From assembly GCA_014860565.1 (NCBI GenBank), contig JACZJN010000054.1, positions 1 to 41,937 on the forward strand: a stretch of DNA of 41,937 bases, given 5' to 3'. Under the pieces are notes generated by a model. The model was not told where the DNA came from, made no database searches, and saw only the letters and a program-made list of their open reading frames with translations. Source of the DNA: Bacteroidota bacterium (GTDB lineage Bacteria > Bacteroidota > Ignavibacteria > SZUA-365). How positions within the stretch are numbered: position 1 is the stretch's first letter; each line of letters starts with the position of its first letter. Positions 26,149 through 34,125 of the stretch are shown piece by piece. The position numbers and the translations under genes are program-made.

Positions 26149-29100
26149 TTATCGGTACGCGGGTGCCGACTTGATGTGCAGCAGATGTCCTTCCATGCGA
26201 TCGATGAAATTCAATTCCGCATTCGGCGCCTGGTCCATATGCCAGTATGCGACGAGATGATCGGGCGGGGGGTCGGCTCCCTCGGCCAGCCGGGCAATTT
26301 CTTCGTCGCAGAGCAGGCGGCGCCATATGGCGATGTCTGCTATTCGCCGCGTCTGGGCAAGCGCCTCACGCATGACCGCGTGCAACTTTGCCGAGAACAT
26401 GTTGTACTTGTCGTTGAAGAGGCCGAAGGTCATTCCTTCATAACGATAGTGCCAGTCGTAGTATTCTCCTCCGGGCGTGTGGCACGGGGTGAGCGCCCCC
26501 CGCTGCCTGCCGTCGATAAACACCTCTTTTACTCCGGTATGCAGGACGCGGATGGTGATATGATGCCAGCCGGGCGCGACCGAGCCGATGATATCCGACG
26601 CGCATCCGCTGTAGGACGTTGCGATCGTATCACTGCTGAAGCTGATGTAGTGGTCGAGATTTTCGTACACGAAGGCCGTGCTGCGCCGTACGTCGGTGTA
26701 CCACCAGAAGGCAAAACAGGCGTCGCTTTTTCTGGGCAGCAGCTGCCTGGCGCAGTAGAGGTAGGCCCCCGGCGGCAGGGCAATGGCGGGAAGTCCCCTG
26801 GGTCCCGGAATAAGCCTTGGCAGGGAGGACGCGGGGAGAATCGGAGCGGTCGAGCGCACCTGGACGGGGCGATAGCGCAGTTCGGCATCCTGGGAAGCGT
26901 TGCTGCCGTTGAAGGCGGTCATGTCGCAATTCGTTTCCATATCGAAGCTGGCCTGAAGCGCAGGGCTCGTCCCCGGAAGCGTCACATTCATCCTTGCACG
27001 GATTTCCGCTTCTTTGAGCACCGACCACCAGACCCTGAAGTTATCGATTTCACACGCGAGATAGCCGCTCACACGATTTGAGTCCGCGTATGCTCCCAGA
27101 CTGACGTAGGGTGTCGATCTGCTCGGCATGGCGAGAGCGGCACGGCGCTCGAAGACCGCTTTCCCATCGAGAAAGAACCGTATGAGGTGGCGCGAGATCG
27201 AGTATGCCAGTGCGACATGATGCCATTGGTTCGGTTTCATTGGCGAGGGGAGCGGAACGGTGAAGCGCTCATTTCCGAGAAAGATCTGTGGCCGGCCCTC
27301 ACTGAAGCTGATTGTCATCGTTCCCATCCCCGGATTCATATCCGAGTTCAGTCCGTTGTGAAGGAAACAGCCATCCCAGTTCAGCGAGCGCACCCAGCTC
27401 TCCAGCGTGAGTTCTCCGCTCGTGAAAGCGAGACTGTTCGTTCCCCAGGTCATGAAATCAGGGCCTTCGCTCAGTCGAAGCGCATACCCCCCGGGCATTG
27501 CACGCCCTGCGCACCCATCGAGCTTCAACCGGAAATACTCCTCTCCGCCCGCTTCGTCTCGTATCACAAGGGCTGCTTCCTTTCGTGAGGCGCTGCTGAC
27601 GGGCGCGTACATCACCGTGACTTCGGACGGTATCGTACTTTTGAGTACGGTCGCACCCGCCCCTGAACTGACGTACCAATCGCTGTTGTTCGGACCTTCA
27701 ATCGAAATGTACACCTCCCTGTCGCGCGGCGTCATGTTGTATACCGAAACCGTGCGCGAGAATCCATCTCCCACTTCCAGGTCGCCAAAGGAGATGCGCG
27801 GAGGTCGGAGGAGCCGGCCATCGCGAAAAGCCCATTCCACTGAATCATGCGGATTGAACACGATCGCACTCTCACCGACGGTGATGCCGCGCATGACTTC
27901 CAGATCAGGAAAGGCCACAAATGATCGGTAAAAAAGTCCGGCTGCGACCACGAGGACAAGAAACGCCACCAACAGGCTCAGGGCGCGGGCATAGCGCTGG
28001 GTAAACATCTGCACGCGGTCATACGGATTTCGGATCAGCGTTTCCACGACGTGATCCGGACGAAAGCAATCCGAGAAATGGGCGGCCGAATAGACTTCAA
28101 ACCAGCGCTGGGGGTATTCCTTCTGAAGCTGCTGGACATAGCGTGTGGCTTCCTCGACAAACGTCTCCGGGATTACCACACGCCGAAGCGGAGAATAAAA
28201 GGCCAGTTCGAGCTTTCGACGCAGCGTGTCCCACGCCGCGGATTCAAGTTGTCCGTGATCATCGAGAGAGGCGACGCAGGCAGTGTCGGTCGGAAGGGTC
28301 CATCGGATGCGTGCGTTCACCTGTCGGCTGAGATGGCACGCCAGACCCACGGTAGCCGCGAGACCAAGCGATCCGCCGGAAAAAGCCGCATGAAGATCGA
28401 TGAATTGAAAAAACACTTCCCTGCGGTCGAAACGGAATCCGGTATGCTGCTGTGTGAACGCCGTGGCCATATCATTCGCACCCTGCAGCTGACGGCGTGT
28501 CAGGTCGGCATCCGCACCGAGTACATTATTGATATGAATGCCCCCGCTGCTGCTGCGACGTGAGGCGATTTCCATCTGCAGTACCGCGCCGGCCGCGGCT
28601 GTCTGGTCCTGATCGGTTTCGAGCAGGACGACCGCCACCGCATCTTGCCGTGCCTGCGCCGTCCGCCAGCGATGCCGCGCAAGCAGCAAAGGATGATTCT
28701 TGGCCAGGTCTTCTCCCAACGCCTCACAAAATGCTTCGAACATCGCGAGGGGTGCGGGTCCCGAACCGTAGATCCGGCGCCATTTCCTCTCATCAATGTC
28801 GGGCATTGGTGTCCCGTTTTTCTGGAGAAACCCGTACAGGCCGCGCAAGTCCGCCACGTAGCCATGCGAAAGACAACCCTTGAGAAGTGCTTCCCCCCTG
28901 GCTTCCAGCAGGCCCGCGGCATCCGAGACCTCTCCTTCGAGAGCACCAAGGAAATCCATGGCGCTGATCCAGAGATGCGGATGATGTCCGACGGTGTACG
29001 GATGCAGAATCAGGCGGATCAGTGGGTGCGAAAGAGGAAGCAGGTACGTTCGCGTCCAGGCGATAGGAAGATGCGCAGTGTCACTGAAGAAATCGGTCAA

Positions 29101-29205
29101 TGCATGCAGCTGAAGCTGCGGTGAGCGCTTTGCATGCATGAGTGCGTCGAGCGCTTTTCCAGCAGCATCGAGGTCTCGGGGAGTATGTATGCGTCCTTCA
29201 GCCAT
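26149..29205 (-). CDS. Transmembrane Lon-like (S16) / LamG protein, paralogue 2
   Basis: This 1018-aa protein has a helical N-terminal region (1-185). A Lon-like proteolytic domain (about 188-392) has Ser279 in FSGGSLGLAA and Lys331 in LRRKLELAF followed by RRVVIPE, matching the Ser and Lys regions of Lon. One membrane helix follows (about 408-430). After it come an Ig/ASH-like domain (about 440-575, FGDLEVGDGFSRTVSVYN) and two LamG/concanavalin-like domains (about 575-745 and 800-1015, e.g. NQWHHVALAYS, PGWHHITIRV). Basic residues before the helix put the protease in the cytoplasm and the LamG part outside. No AAA+ ATPase domain is present. It starts 35 bases after the stop of its tandem paralogue, with a GGAG ribosome-binding site. 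The architecture is read from sequence; the function is unknown. Confidence 0.75.
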   Translation of the reverse strand: MAEGRIHTPRDLDAAGKALDALMHAKRSPQLQLHALTDFFSDTAHLPIAWTRTYLLPLSHPLIRLILHPYTVGHHPHLWISAMDFLGALEGEVSDAAGLLEARGEALLKGCLSHGYVADLRGLYGFLQKNGTPMPDIDERKWRRIYGSGPAPLAMFEAFCEALGEDLAKNHPLLLARHRWRTAQARQDAVAVVLLETDQDQTAAAGAVLQMEIASRRSSSGGIHINNVLGADADLTRRQLQGANDMATAFTQQHTGFRFDRREVFFQFIDLHAAFSGGSLGLAATVGLACHLSRQVNARIRWTLPTDTACVASLDDHGQLESAAWDTLRRKLELAFYSPLRRVVIPETFVEEATRYVQQLQKEYPQRWFEVYSAAHFSDCFRPDHVVETLIRNPYDRVQMFTQRYARALSLLVAFLVLVVAAGLFYRSFVAFPDLEVMRGITVGESAIVFNPHDSVEWAFRDGRLLRPPRISFGDLEVGDGFSRTVSVYNMTPRDREVYISIEGPNNSDWYVSSGAGATVLKSTIPSEVTVMYAPVSSASRKEAALVIRDEAGGEEYFRLKLDGCAGRAMPGGYALRLSEGPDFMTWGTNSLAFTSGELTLESWVRSLNWDGCFLHNGLNSDMNPGMGTMTISFSEGRPQIFLGNERFTVPLPSPMKPNQWHHVALAYSISRHLIRFFLDGKAVFERRAALAMPSRSTPYVSLGAYADSNRVSGYLACEIDNFRVWWSVLKEAEIRARMNVTLPGTSPALQASFDMETNCDMTAFNGSNASQDAELRYRPVQVRSTAPILPASSLPRLIPGPRGLPAIALPPGAYLYCARQLLPRKSDACFAFWWYTDVRRSTAFVYENLDHYISFSSDTIATSYSGCASDIIGSVAPGWHHITIRVLHTGVKEVFIDGRQRGALTPCHTPGGEYYDWHYRYEGMTFGLFNDKYNMFSAKLHAVMREALAQTRRIADIAIWRRLLCDEEIARLAEGADPPPDHLVAYWHMDQAPNAELNFIDRMEGHLLHIKSAPAYR

Positions 29206-29240
29206 TCACACTCCGATCATGGCCCGGGTGGTCATGTTTA

Positions 29241-32200
29241 TCATTCCCACCCATAAACTTGCTTCACATGCAGAAGCTGATGGTTAATCACGTCAATGAA
29301 GTTGTTGTTGCTGTCGGGAAGCTGCACGAGCGGCCACGAGGCAACCAGTGACGATCGTGGAATCCTGTCCGCAGCGGACAAACCGGCAATTTCCGATTGG
29401 TTGAGTTTCCGTTTCCAGACATGCAGGGACCCATAGCTCCGCGGGTGAGAAAGTGTTGGATGATACCAGTCATAATACTTGGAAGCAAGCTGCTGCTCCT
29501 TGTCGAATCGGAAGCCCAGCATCATTCCTTCGAAACGTGCGTGCCAATCCTGCTTCCCGGCCGTGATGGATCGCGACGTCGCCACGAGCGTCCCGTCCGA
29601 ATAAAAGGCCACCGCTCCGTCAGCACTGACTGTGCATACACCCAGATGCCAACCCGGAGGGATGGTATAGGCCTCTTTCTTGGCAACGGTGAACAGCATA
29701 TTGTTCTCGACGGAAATCCACCCGCCGTCCTTGAGCACATAATTGAAATGGATGGCTGGCTCCGCCTCCTGGAGGAACCAGAACGCAAACGTCGCATCCG
29801 AATATCGTGGCAGCAAAGGACGTACCGATACGAGATATCGCCCTGAACGCAATTCCACGGCGAGGAATTTTCCTTCGCGCTTGACAAGACGAAGATCCAG
29901 CGTCGGAGAATGAAGAGCAAGATCGGAGCGCACAAGGACAGGCCTGTGGAGCAGCGTACCGCTGTGCGCCTGCTTGTTGGCGTTGAAGAGCGTGTTCTCG
30001 ACGCTTGCGTCCACATCCCAGTACCCTGCCAGATCCGGTGTCAATCCCTGCAACCGCCGATGCATCGCGCGAACAATGTCGGCCCGGCTCCGGAAACTGT
30101 GCCAAAGTCGAATCTCGTCGATATCGCCCTGGAAATGCAGATCCGATGCGACGCCGCTGTTTCTCGCACCGATCGTCACAAACGGCGTACCCGGACCGTC
30201 GAAGAGAAAATCCGCCTTCCGGTTTTCCACTTCCTGCCCGTTCAGATAGACCGCAATCCGATGTTGCGGAATGGAGATGGCGAGAGCAAGGTGCAGCCAC
30301 TGACCGGTAACGGGGATTTGCCTGCCCTCAAGTACGACCATGCCGATCGCGGACCCGACCCGGTAGTACATCGTGTCAGGCGATACAAAGCCGAAAAACA
30401 GGTCTTCGATATCCGGGTTGTTTTGGCGCGACTGTCCGTTATACAGGATCATGGCATTGTTGAGCGGAGCCGTCGGTCGTATCCAGCATTCGAACGTTGC
30501 TTCCTTTGTCGCCGTGGCGGTGATGTCGAAGGCCGTGCTGCGCTGGCCGAAATGGATCTGGTCGTCCCTGCCATCGAGATGCAGCGCATAGCCGGCGGCG
30601 AGGGGCGGTCCGGCGGCGCCGATCAAATGCAGATCGTAGAGCAGGTCCCCCGAATACGGATTCCGCAGCACCAATGCGGCGTGCTTCGCCGCGCCTGCGT
30701 TCAGCGGTGCGAACATCACCGTCACCAGCACCTTGCCCGCCGACGGGACGGTGAGGTTATCATCCCCCATGTTGATGTACCAGTCGCCGGCGTCAGGTCC
30801 CTCGATGGAAAGCCGCAGCTTCAGATCCGAGGGAGTCATATTCCATATCCAGAAATGGCGGGTGAATCCGTCACCAATTTCCAGATCCCCGAAGCCGATG
30901 GCATTCTCCGCAACTTGCTTTTCATCCCGGAAACACCAGGCGAGGGTATCCTTAGGATTATACACGATGGAACTCGCGCCCACACTCAGGCCCATTGTTT
31001 GTTCGAGATTCGGGTAATCGTAGTACGCCCGATAGGCAAAATATCCCCCGCCGCCGATGAGGATAACGGTAAGCAGGAGCAGAAGCGGTATACCGTGGCG
31101 GACAAGCGACTCACGCATCTGCTCTATCCGCCGGCGGTATGCGATAGTGAACACGCCTTCGAGTGTCTCGAGATCGCGAATATGGCTGATCCCGATGACT
31201 TCGAGGCGGCGCTTTGGCTGTTCGCGCTGCAGTTGCTGGAGAAAAAGCAACGCGGCCTCGCGATGCGATGCGGGGATGACGATTTTCTCAAGTGGTGAGC
31301 AGAAGGCCACACGCAATTTCTTTTCAATCAGCGCCCATCCACCGGGTTCGATCGTGCCGTCCTCGCCAAGGCTACCGACGCAGGCGATTGTCGTCGGCAG
31401 CGTCCATCGCTGCGGAAGATTCAGATGATGAGTGAGTCCAGCCGTGAGTCCCGCGGCGGCTGCGCAGCCCAGCGACCCACCAACGAGCGCGATGCTGGTT
31501 TCGTGAAGCGAGAAGTGGTAGCGACGGTGTCCCGGATTTTTTCCGAAACGCGCGGCGATCAGTTTTTCTCCGAGGACCTGCGCGCGCCTCAACTGCTCGA
31601 TCGTTTCATATCCCTGGTCGCCGAGCAGATTGTTGATGTTGCTCTCCCCGCTTACGCCTTCCTGCGAAAGAATATCCATCAGCAGCACCCGGCCGGCAGT
31701 GTGCCGGTCGTCGCCATCCGCCTCGAGCAGGACAACAGCCACTGCTTGCGTACGCTGCCGATAATCCACCCACTGCTCCAGGATGTGGGTAAAGACAGAG
31801 AGTTTCGCGCAGCTGCGTTCCTTCAGCACCACGACATAGGCCTTATAAACGCCAAAGGCCGTCGTGGAAGCACCGAAGACGGAGATCCATTCCTCGACCG
31901 CAAGCGGACTTTCTATCCATTCCCAATCCAGCAGAAACTGATGAAGTTCCCGCAGAGCCGAAACGTAGGCATGCGACCGGATGGCGTGCTCGGCGGCGAG
32001 CACATGGAGCTCGTCCATTGCCGTCCCCGTCGACGCCCAGTTTTGTTTTTCAATCTGTCGGAAGAAAGAGTACGCGTCTCTCCACACCGGTGCGGGGAGA
32101 TTGCTTAAGGAAGGGTAACGGAGCAATTCCAGGAATAGCGGGGAAAGCGGCATCAAGTAGCCGGGCAGCCAGGACGCGGGAAGGGACTGTATGTGTCGCC

Positions 32201-32336
32201 AGAATTCGACGATATGCAGGAAGCGTTTCTGCGGCGACGGGGTGATGAGCAGCGTACGATCGAGCGAGCGCGCCGCGGCGTCGAGTTCCACGGGAGTGCG
32301 GATATATCCCATCGGCCCATCGGCGGTTAGCGGCAC
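29241..32336 (-). CDS. Transmembrane Lon-like (S16) / LamG protein, paralogue 1
   Basis: This 1031-aa protein has the same layout as its downstream neighbour: helical region (1-190), Lon-like domain (about 197-400), membrane helix (about 413-437), Ig/ASH-like domain (about 450-575), and two LamG-like domains (577-770 and 810-1020). The Lon similarity is clearer here: VGGSLGCAAAAGL with Ser288, then CVGSLGEDGTIEPGG, IEKKLRVAF with Lys340, and KIVIP, in the order seen in Lon (G-E-x-x-x-x-G-x-x-x-P-x-G-G ... E-K). The Ser-Lys spacing is 52 residues in both paralogues, against 43 in E. coli Lon. It starts at a GTG behind a very strong GGAGGAGG site. It is likely a membrane-spanning peptidase or signalling protein. 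Confidence 0.77.
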   Translation of the reverse strand: MPLTADGPMGYIRTPVELDAAARSLDRTLLITPSPQKRFLHIVEFWRHIQSLPASWLPGYLMPLSPLFLELLRYPSLSNLPAPVWRDAYSFFRQIEKQNWASTGTAMDELHVLAAEHAIRSHAYVSALRELHQFLLDWEWIESPLAVEEWISVFGASTTAFGVYKAYVVVLKERSCAKLSVFTHILEQWVDYRQRTQAVAVVLLEADGDDRHTAGRVLLMDILSQEGVSGESNINNLLGDQGYETIEQLRRAQVLGEKLIAARFGKNPGHRRYHFSLHETSIALVGGSLGCAAAAGLTAGLTHHLNLPQRWTLPTTIACVGSLGEDGTIEPGGWALIEKKLRVAFCSPLEKIVIPASHREAALLFLQQLQREQPKRRLEVIGISHIRDLETLEGVFTIAYRRRIEQMRESLVRHGIPLLLLLTVILIGGGGYFAYRAYYDYPNLEQTMGLSVGASSIVYNPKDTLAWCFRDEKQVAENAIGFGDLEIGDGFTRHFWIWNMTPSDLKLRLSIEGPDAGDWYINMGDDNLTVPSAGKVLVTVMFAPLNAGAAKHAALVLRNPYSGDLLYDLHLIGAAGPPLAAGYALHLDGRDDQIHFGQRSTAFDITATATKEATFECWIRPTAPLNNAMILYNGQSRQNNPDIEDLFFGFVSPDTMYYRVGSAIGMVVLEGRQIPVTGQWLHLALAISIPQHRIAVYLNGQEVENRKADFLFDGPGTPFVTIGARNSGVASDLHFQGDIDEIRLWHSFRSRADIVRAMHRRLQGLTPDLAGYWDVDASVENTLFNANKQAHSGTLLHRPVLVRSDLALHSPTLDLRLVKREGKFLAVELRSGRYLVSVRPLLPRYSDATFAFWFLQEAEPAIHFNYVLKDGGWISVENNMLFTVAKKEAYTIPPGWHLGVCTVSADGAVAFYSDGTLVATSRSITAGKQDWHARFEGMMLGFRFDKEQQLASKYYDWYHPTLSHPRSYGSLHVWKRKLNQSEIAGLSAADRIPRSSLVASWPLVQLPDSNNNFIDVINHQLLHVKQVYGWE

Positions 32337-32393
32337 GTATCCTCCTCCGAAGTCATATCAATCCATCGTAAAGAAATCATCAGAACGATTTCG

Positions 32394-32867
32394 TCATGCG
32401 GTGAGGAGGATCACTTTCATGGGTTCGATATCGATGCTGGAAGTCCCAATCTCGAAAACGCCATTTGCATCGGGGACGAATTCGCGATCTATGCCGTCAA
32501 AGCGGATGCGAATATGCTGATCCTCGCTTCTCTCCGCAATGAAAAACCCCGTGAGCTGCTGGCGCTGTGTGTCTTCGATAACACGCAGGATCACGGCATT
32601 ATTGTTGAGATACCACGTTCGCCGCAGGCGATACTGCGGTGCGGATGCTGTCGTCGATTGGGCGGCGAGTCGATAATGCGTCGATCGATAGCTGAATTCC
32701 TCGGTGCCTGCCTCGACCTCGCCGTCCTGGAATATTTCGGGTGCGCTGGCCAGGAAGTCAACGGCCAGTTCGAATTGTTCTCTGCAGAATGCACAGCGAT
32801 CCAAATGGGCGGAGGGCTGGCCATTCCGTGCAAAAAACAACAGCGTTTTGAGATCATGGTGCTCCAT
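32394..32867 (-). CDS. Small protein with anti-sigma-type zinc finger
   Basis: This 157-aa protein starts MEHHDLKTLLFFARNG. His21, Cys25 and Cys28 form the H-x3-C-x2-C motif (HLDRCAFC) of the ZAS anti-sigma zinc finger. The remainder is beta-rich, has no membrane helix, and ends in a predicted small sandwich (IRIRFDGIDREF, VFEIGTSSIDIEPMKVILL). ZAS proteins usually bind and hold ECF sigma factors. It lies between the 343-aa gene and the two Lon/LamG genes on the same strand, so it may regulate them. The ATG at 32867 is preferred for its GGAG site; a longer frame would add 23 residues. Confidence 0.65.
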   Translation of the reverse strand: MEHHDLKTLLFFARNGQPSAHLDRCAFCREQFELAVDFLASAPEIFQDGEVEAGTEEFSYRSTHYRLAAQSTTASAPQYRLRRTWYLNNNAVILRVIEDTQRQQLTGFFIAERSEDQHIRIRFDGIDREFVPDANGVFEIGTSSIDIEPMKVILLTA

Positions 32868-33001
32868 TGAAGCAGCTCCGTGTTTGAGTGAATATCCTAT
32901 ATACATATATCCTGTCAGTTCGCACCCTGTGGCCAAAACTTTCCTCTGAAAACAACACTTTTTTTGGGGGGCAATGCGGTGGAATCGCTTCCAGGGCGTT
33001 G

Positions 33002-34033
33002 CTACCGATTTGAATCCGCCATCAAATGCCTTTTCGCCTCCTGGACGACCCGTTCATACATATAGGCAAACTTCCTCCGATAGGTCTCTCTGAAGCGTTC
33101 AGGGGAGAGCCCGGGCATATACAGGCGCAGAAATGAATACCCCGAGCGAACGTCGTCTCCCCTCTGCAGGTCGAGGAAGGTTGCCTTTATTGCCAGCAGC
33201 ATGAGTTCGAATTCCCACAGGCTCAAACGCCCGCGCTTGATGTACAGATTCTCGAGCGATGGCCGCACGGCATCAATTGCGAGGTGGATGATATGGGAAA
33301 GTACCGAGACGTCGTAGGAAATCGATGCATCTGTCTGATCGAGTTGGATCGCGGCTTCAAGATCCCTGCCCAGATAGTCGACCGTGATCCGGATGACGTC
33401 CATTTCGAGCACTGCCTTGCGGTATTCATCCTGCCCGCGCAGGTATCGGAGAATGCTGCGGAACACCTCCACGGCTTCCGAGCGATTCCGGGGGTTGAAT
33501 TCCACAAGCGATTGCCGTATGATTTCGACCGGCGCGGCCGGTTTGTACAGATCAGCTTGTTCGAGAGGTTCCGCCAGATACCAGCGGCCGTCGAGCATGT
33601 CACGTATTTCGATGTCATCACGCCCCTGCACATGCTTACGGACTGCTTTCAGGAGAGTATGCTGCAGAGGATTGATTTCGGAAAAGATGCGAGGGAAATG
33701 GCGCTGGACATTGTAGAAGATTACCGCCTCGAATTGGGAGAGGAGTTCCGCATCGGACGCCTCTGCCATCGGGAGGAGTGCGGCCCGTAACGCGGCGCAG
33801 CAGGAATCCTCACCCTCGGCAAGAAGTTCGGCGGAAATATCATAGGAAAGATCGCGGAGCGTTAGTCCGAGCGCATGCAGACGGTAGTTTTTCCGCATGC
33901 TCAACCAGTAAATCGCCTGCTCCGTACGATGAATTGTGCGTTTGATCAGGGCATCGGAAGCGGATGCGTCTATCCCTCCGGCGACAAGTGCCCGGAGCAT
34001 GGACAGCAGATCTTGGGTTGCTTCGGCAGGCAT
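33002..34033 (-). CDS. Conserved-looking helical protein of unknown function
   Basis: This 343-aa protein, starting MPAEATQDLLSMLRAL, is predicted to be almost all alpha-helical, with no signal peptide, membrane helix or recognised catalytic motif. The segments RDLSYDISAELLAEG and LSQFEAVIFYNVQRHFPRIF are the kind of helical, RNA-polymerase-region-like stretches seen in some divergent sigma-like regulators, but I cannot assign it to that family. It is the first gene after the suf terminator and precedes the zinc-finger gene by 134 bases, so a regulator/anti-regulator pair is possible. The frame extends 51 codons further upstream through the terminator hairpin; that extension is rejected. Confidence 0.6.
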   Translation of the reverse strand: MPAEATQDLLSMLRALVAGGIDASASDALIKRTIHRTEQAIYWLSMRKNYRLHALGLTLRDLSYDISAELLAEGEDSCCAALRAALLPMAEASDAELLSQFEAVIFYNVQRHFPRIFSEINPLQHTLLKAVRKHVQGRDDIEIRDMLDGRWYLAEPLEQADLYKPAAPVEIIRQSLVEFNPRNRSEAVEVFRSILRYLRGQDEYRKAVLEMDVIRITVDYLGRDLEAAIQLDQTDASISYDVSVLSHIIHLAIDAVRPSLENLYIKRGRLSLWEFELMLLAIKATFLDLQRGDDVRSGYSFLRLYMPGLSPERFRETYRRKFAYMYERVVQEAKRHLMADSNR

Positions 34034-34082
34034 GAACAATTCCGATGGATTCAGGAAAAAATATACGGATTTCCACCAGCGT

Positions 34083-34125
34083 AAAAAAAAACTCCCGCCG
34101 CGTGCAGATGCATTGAAGACGGGAG
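34083..34125 (-). terminator. Intrinsic terminator of the suf operon
   Basis: On the minus strand CTCCCG (34125-34120) pairs with CGGGAG (34097-34092) around a loop that contains an inner TGCA/TGCA pair, followed by nine Ts (34091-34083). It lies 24 bases after the rrf2 stop codon and cleanly separates the suf operon from the next genes. Confidence 0.8.

Follow-up and report, generated by a model that had tools for sequence, protein, structure and literature searches.

We analysed a stretch of 41,937 nucleotides, referred to below as the window, which makes up contig JACZJN010000054.1 of assembly GCA_014860565.1 (a Bacteroidota bacterium of the class Ignavibacteria). Four adjacent genes, here called A to D, occupy positions 26149-34033 on its minus strand, and all feature positions given below lie on that strand. 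An earlier note, made from the DNA alone, had placed four same-strand genes between the suf terminator and a GH31 gene, and all four were confirmed as reading frames. Gene D (33002-34033) encodes an all-helical protein of 343 residues from what appears to be a new family, and gene C (32394-32867) a soluble protein of 157 residues that combines a ZAS-type finger, a linker with the tripeptide L-A-A and a beta-rich domain. Gene B (29241-32336, GTG start) encodes a transmembrane Lon-like sensor protein of 1031 residues, and gene A (26149-29205) its tandem paralogue of 1018 residues with the same domain plan. Gaps of at most 136 bp separate D from C and C from B, and 35 bp lie between B and A. Three of these genes represent a recurring unit, D followed by C and a Lon-like gene (D-C-Lon), which is the subject of this report.

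From N- to C-terminus, the paralogues A and B both comprise a helical domain, the Lon (S16) domain, a single membrane helix, an Ig/ASH-like region and LamG. As single sequences, neither matches a Lon entry in Pfam or NCBIfam, so that the Lon_C cut-off, to which the earlier note had pointed as a check, is not reached; sub-threshold Lon_C matches do occur in six of 31 family members in Pfam (best E 0.0053), and a 31-sequence family profile picks up true ATP-dependent Lons in other genomes (E 6e-6). A profile of 60 relatives leads in the PDB to Archaeoglobus fulgidus LonB, the closest solved sequence relative (E 5.6e-11, both catalytic residues aligned), and then to other Lons; the S16 protease domain of B spans positions 31152-31769 (about residues 190-395). 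The AlphaFold2 model of B residues 15-444 is confident (predicted local distance difference test, pLDDT, 94.2; predicted template modelling score, pTM, 0.90), and all 50 of the 50 Foldseek matches listed for it are Lons (E 1e-8 to 1e-7; TM-score 0.79 on 1rr9_A). Structure prediction, which the earlier note had also named as a check, thus recovers the S16 fold. In that model the N-terminal helical domain (31797-32294, about residues 15-180; from H2-17 to H165-180 in the numbering of the fragment) stands where Lon has its AAA+ module, and neither Pfam searches nor the model gave a match to an AAA+ module in A, B or other family members.

Within the S16 domain, Ser288 (31473-31475) and Lys340 (31317-31319) of B are the equivalents of Ser679 and Lys722 of Escherichia coli Lon (numbering as in PMC2605481) and align to the Ser and Lys of LonB. 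They are jointly the most conserved of 430 alignment columns (59/60 each, at a mean identity of 27%), and A keeps both, as Ser279 (28369-28371) and Lys331 (28213-28215). The inner half of B therefore has an S16 Lon-type fold with a Ser-Lys dyad at the Lon positions, as had been claimed, and we regard fold and dyad as solid. The conservation of both residues is hard to explain without catalysis and makes it very unlikely, in our view, that the Lon fold is a non-cutting platform that tethers C, along with D, at the membrane and lets it go upon ligand binding, even if Lon-fold domains without protease activity are known elsewhere and neither the Ser nor the Lys is present in the aligned sequence of one family member (L081).

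The single membrane helix of B (31026-31094, about residues 415-437) appears as a helix in the AlphaFold2 model, and its N-terminal side is the one richer in Lys and Arg in 59 of 59 family members, which puts the N-terminus and the protease inside and the sensor outside; this part of the earlier description holds. The outer portion begins with the Ig/ASH-like domain (30612-30914, about residues 475-575), for which Cep192_D4 (E 9.9e-5 in B) and choice_anch_D (E 0.006 in B, 0.0014 in A) give matches, all of them below the curated cut-offs. A first LamG/ConA-like domain follows (30057-30584, about residues 585-760; PDB 4dqa, E 4.4e-8), whose Laminin_G_3 matches exceed the Pfam cut-off in B (E 7.1e-20) and A (E 1e-15). 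The second LamG-like domain that had been claimed is less distinct: a LamG/pentraxin-like domain is probable at 29292-29939 (about residues 800-1015), where pentraxin, sialidase and S-layer entries match weakly (E 0.024-0.24).

To place these genes in context, 296 genomes of the phylum were surveyed, along with 197 genomes of the class for D. The Lon-like profile matches 32 of the 296 (a few of these matches being true Lons), and the named carriers are metagenome bins of Bacteroidetes and Ignavibacteria. Over all fetched loci we counted 67 Lon-like genes: 44 stand in the order D-C-Lon, two as C-Lon, six are tandem second copies behind a unit of one of these two kinds, two show the order Lon-D-C, two lie at contig ends and 11 stand alone. 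C is thus immediately upstream of 46 Lon-like genes, with D before it in 44. This linkage is seen in numerous families, which belong to more than one class, and the gene order is retained at 15-20% identity. Both observations make it highly improbable that the Lon-like protein is a membrane quality-control protease that adjoins D-C by chance and has no signalling link to it, a view that can appeal to the Lon-like genes standing apart from D-C; the match between soluble C proteins and genomes that have a Lon-like gene (see below) argues against it as well. The earlier note had asked whether the genes travel together, and across the phylum they do. What it described as a closed four-gene cassette is upheld as to co-occurrence and corrected as to size. 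Nearly every genome of the window's family has D, C and B in this order, adjoining suf; in the one exception (G002), C-B lacks an adjoining D. Gene A stands beside B in three genomes only, all of the window's genus, and forms a separate clade without D-C of its own; a third LamG-type clade, present in other genomes, has its own D and C. The real unit is therefore D-C-Lon, with A as an add-on, and we consider this cassette and its linkage solid.

Several loci vary on this arrangement. In G003 (L028, 11961-12270, plus strand), a broken Lon-like remnant of about 100 residues with an in-frame stop directly follows B, at the position of A in sister genomes; the tandem copy seems to be decaying in this species. 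Two or three tandem Lon-like genes, each with its own ectodomain, stand behind one D-C pair at L057 (6598-13688), L046 (5788-10535) and L065 (5132-9758), as if several sensors fed one regulator. The window's genome also holds a second D-C pair (L140, G000:C92, 1241-3166, minus strand), with a soluble C of 281 residues that carries LAA and without an adjoining Lon-like gene. Sister genomes (L141, L142 and L145) have this orphan pair too, and it is also present at L143.

The C protein carries the H-x3-C-x2-C finger of ZAS type that had been proposed for it. The motif (H21-x3-C25-x2-C28, 32784-32807) is present, and hhalign aligns C profiles to zf-HC2 proteins at 95-96% (94.8% for soluble and 96.4% for transmembrane C proteins, against 0.1-3.3% for shuffles), with the aligned stretches centred on the motif; single C sequences give sub-threshold zf-HC2 matches in Pfam (best 0.0058). 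Across genomes, C comes in two forms. The first is one protein of about 475 residues that joins the ZAS finger to a membrane helix and an FG-GAP-type outer domain of about 330 residues, an arrangement typical of membrane anti-sigma factors. The second is soluble and consists of finger, linker and beta-domain. The variable linker of this soluble form holds an almost invariant [L/M/I]-A-A tripeptide (L67-A68-A69 in the window, 32661-32669): among 52 soluble C proteins, the second Ala is present in 52, the first in 51 and the Leu in 49, and the flanks are variable. The tripeptide is more conserved than the zinc ligands (65%). LAA is also the end of the ssrA tag, and the motif is a candidate cleavage site or ssrA-like degron.

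At least 76 of the 197 genomes of the class contain gene D, which is far more frequent than the Lon-like gene and almost always followed by a C-type gene. Its AlphaFold2 model is confident and helical (pLDDT 89.6, pTM 0.60). Sequence and profile searches gave no relative in Pfam, NCBIfam or the PDB, and Foldseek gave no significant fold match among PDB and viral models. Judged by these comparisons, D is a new protein family, with a core of about 230 residues. At L160-L163 and L165, D proteins of 229-245 residues lack the C-terminal stretch of about 100 residues, and C and Lon follow normally. The regulator-like helical protein of the earlier note is helical, as described there, and an identity as a sigma factor is not supported. 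Against ECF and housekeeping sigma profiles, hhalign gave 0.2-0.6%, the same as for shuffles (a reversed profile served as a further control, and the positive control, ECF against housekeeping sigma, reached 74%), and sigma-70 regions 2 and 4 found no Pfam or PDB match in the sequence or fold of D. Sigma chains recur among the non-significant Foldseek matches (E 1.6 or worse; phage FliA at prob 0.30), and one of 76 D proteins matches SigW in NCBIfam at 0.023; the recurrence might be taken as a hint of a sigma link, and as a hint only. D is probably a regulator held by C, and it is the fixed pairing with a ZAS-type protein that leads us to consider D the released regulator.

Comparison of the two forms of C with the Lon-like proteins points to an exchange of sensors. 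The ectodomain (about 330 residues) of FG-GAP-type Lon proteins is homologous to that of the membrane-bound C proteins (blastp E 6e-38; hmmsearch E 2e-82). All 16 genomes in which only membrane-bound C was seen lack a Lon-like gene, and genomes with soluble C have one; D is of one family whichever form of C accompanies it, so that C is the co-varying partner. Together, the homology and the co-occurrence indicate that the sensor was transferred from anti-regulator to protease. We consider the swap itself solid; the direction of the sensor changes is inferred. The protease would then have replaced the direct physical link between sensor and anti-regulator, and in the window's family the FG-GAP-type sensor appears to have been replaced in turn by Ig/ASH and LamG. 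LamG is present in A and B, as had been claimed, and is not the general sensor of the family: most relatives carry the FG-GAP-type ectodomain, and LamG/Ig is a second, interchangeable type. With the sensor on the Lon protein and C soluble and endowed with an almost invariant L-A-A, C is likely to be the substrate of the Lon-like protein.

The same comparison bears on two other ways to connect the genes. The Lon-like protein could be an effector, with D and C governing how much of a membrane protease is made or how active it is, and with other proteins as its targets in stress or conflict. A regulator followed by a protease is a common effector layout, D-C usually stands first in the unit, and extra tandem Lon copies exist; however, the occurrence of the same outer domain on the transmembrane ZAS proteins gives the Lon protein the position of a sensor, and C changes its form when a Lon protein is present. 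A role in defence or on mobile elements was rejected, as PADLOC gave no match, B matched nothing on plasmids and D nothing in phages, and these negative results also count against an effector, which we consider unlikely. Somewhat less likely still is that D, alone or along with C, is what the Lon-like protein degrades; a signal would then turn the regulator off rather than on. Lon-type proteases often remove whole regulators and D is present in nearly all units, but it is C that co-varies between the soluble form with LAA and the membrane-bound form, while D remains the same family in both, and without an AAA+ module a single cut is likelier than degradation of a folded protein of 343 residues. 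The earlier note had left open whether the protease frees or destroys a regulator; the first alternative is the better supported, because it is C and not D that becomes soluble with an invariant LAA.

On balance we consider it somewhat probable that D-C-Lon is a transmembrane signalling unit in which a ligand-driven, Lon-type cut of C frees D. What we infer is that the dyad is catalytic, that C is the substrate and is cut at the proposed site, that ClpXP takes part and that D is the output. In such a unit, D would be a cytoplasmic regulator kept inactive by the soluble ZAS-type C, and B, like its copy A, a one-pass membrane receptor whose outer LamG/Ig portion (FG-GAP-type in most relatives) binds a putative ligand and whose inner half is predicted to act as an ATP-independent Lon-type Ser-Lys protease. 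Ligand binding would allow the protease to cut C, with the L-A-A of the linker as the most likely site, and a cut after LAA would part the finger from the beta-domain and leave an ssrA-like -LAA end. ClpXP could then remove the finger half, so that D would be free and gene expression altered. A cut after LAA is proposed because LAA ends the ssrA tag and because ClpXP destroys XAA-ended anti-sigma fragments in RsgI systems. Such degradation of XAA-ended fragments has been described (PMC12203970), and a Lon-like protease that works without ATP-driven unfolding exists in MtaLonC (PMC3391209).

Several observations weigh against this mechanism. The finger motif is intact in just 29 of 46 soluble C proteins, and profile and fold searches detect no relation of D to sigma or other transcription factors. 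About 11 of the 67 Lon-like genes have no adjoining D-C, and these would need to work in trans. The beta-domain could begin with LAA as its first strand, which would give the motif a structural role. Finally, Ala-Ala in the membrane helix of the transmembrane ZAS proteins is not above chance (12/24 against 9 expected), so that the degron idea draws on soluble C alone. The most specific version of the proposal, a bacterial receptor protease in which outside binding directly switches a Lon-type protease, a soluble anti-regulator is cut at LAA and a regulator of a new class, D, is freed, is a tentative one.

Among known systems, RsgI/SigI of Clostridium thermocellum offers the closest parallel in layout: biomass-sensing RsgI joins an outer ligand-binding domain, one membrane helix and an inner anti-regulator, and proteolysis leaves an XAA end that is degraded by ClpXP (PMC12203970, PMC4711584). 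The two-gene units of D and a ZAS-transmembrane-FG-GAP protein share this layout. The Lon cassettes, in contrast, fuse the sensor to the protease and have a separate, soluble anti-regulator, and in the window the anti-sigma domain and the sensor do not share one chain, being split over C and B. Moreover, D is not recognisably SigI or any other sigma factor, and the unit contains no site-2 protease. The S16 domain with its Ser-Lys dyad is shared with LonC, which acts without ATP-powered unfolding (MtaLonC; PMC3391209), and with archaeal LonB, which is likewise membrane-bound. Unlike LonA, LonB and LonC, the Lon-like proteins have a helical domain instead of the AAA+ module, and they differ from LonC and LonB in the large outer sensor after the membrane helix and in the linkage to ZAS and D genes. 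With ZAS anti-sigma factors (zf-HC2; RsrA, RsiW), C shares an alignable HxxxCxxC finger at its start and a position right after the presumed partner gene, and C of the two-gene units has the usual order of finger, membrane helix and sensor; many soluble C copies, in contrast, have lost the finger, a beta-domain with an almost invariant LAA has been added, and the partner D is not a recognisable sigma factor. The open-licence literature, searched for Lon-like proteins with anti-sigma factors, FG-GAP, LamG, conflict systems and zf-HC2, gave no description of such a system, in line with what the earlier note had said of the combination; PMC7159879 contains no mention of Lon-like proteins or of anti-sigma factors.

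Upstream of D, on the same strand, lie a gene for an Rrf2-type regulator and the suf genes, and the GH31 gene is the convergent neighbour of the cassette. Between the Rrf2-type gene and D (34034-34110), a terminator-like hairpin with a T-run stands 3' of the former, followed by a conserved GTATATTTT box. Nearly all related cassettes share this series of hairpin, T-run and box in front of D, and the region of the GTATATTTT box is likely to be a separate promoter of the unit. In G007 (L039, 6409-12772), Pro/Phe-rich repeats (LHPSPFTSPVSPFG-like) occur both upstream and downstream of the cassette and are probably non-coding repeats read as open reading frames.

Transmembrane control via anti-sigma proteolysis normally needs separate shedding and cutting proteases that act on a membrane-bound anti-sigma protein. 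In the units described here, sensor and cytoplasmic protease look like one protein, so that a signal would need no cascade; if true, this would be a new way for a cell to control genes in response to an outside signal. Genomes of the Bacteroidetes group carry the unit widely, and D, as a large new family, would be a new class of regulator. Compared with each other, the two-gene and three-gene forms illustrate how one layout could give rise to the other.

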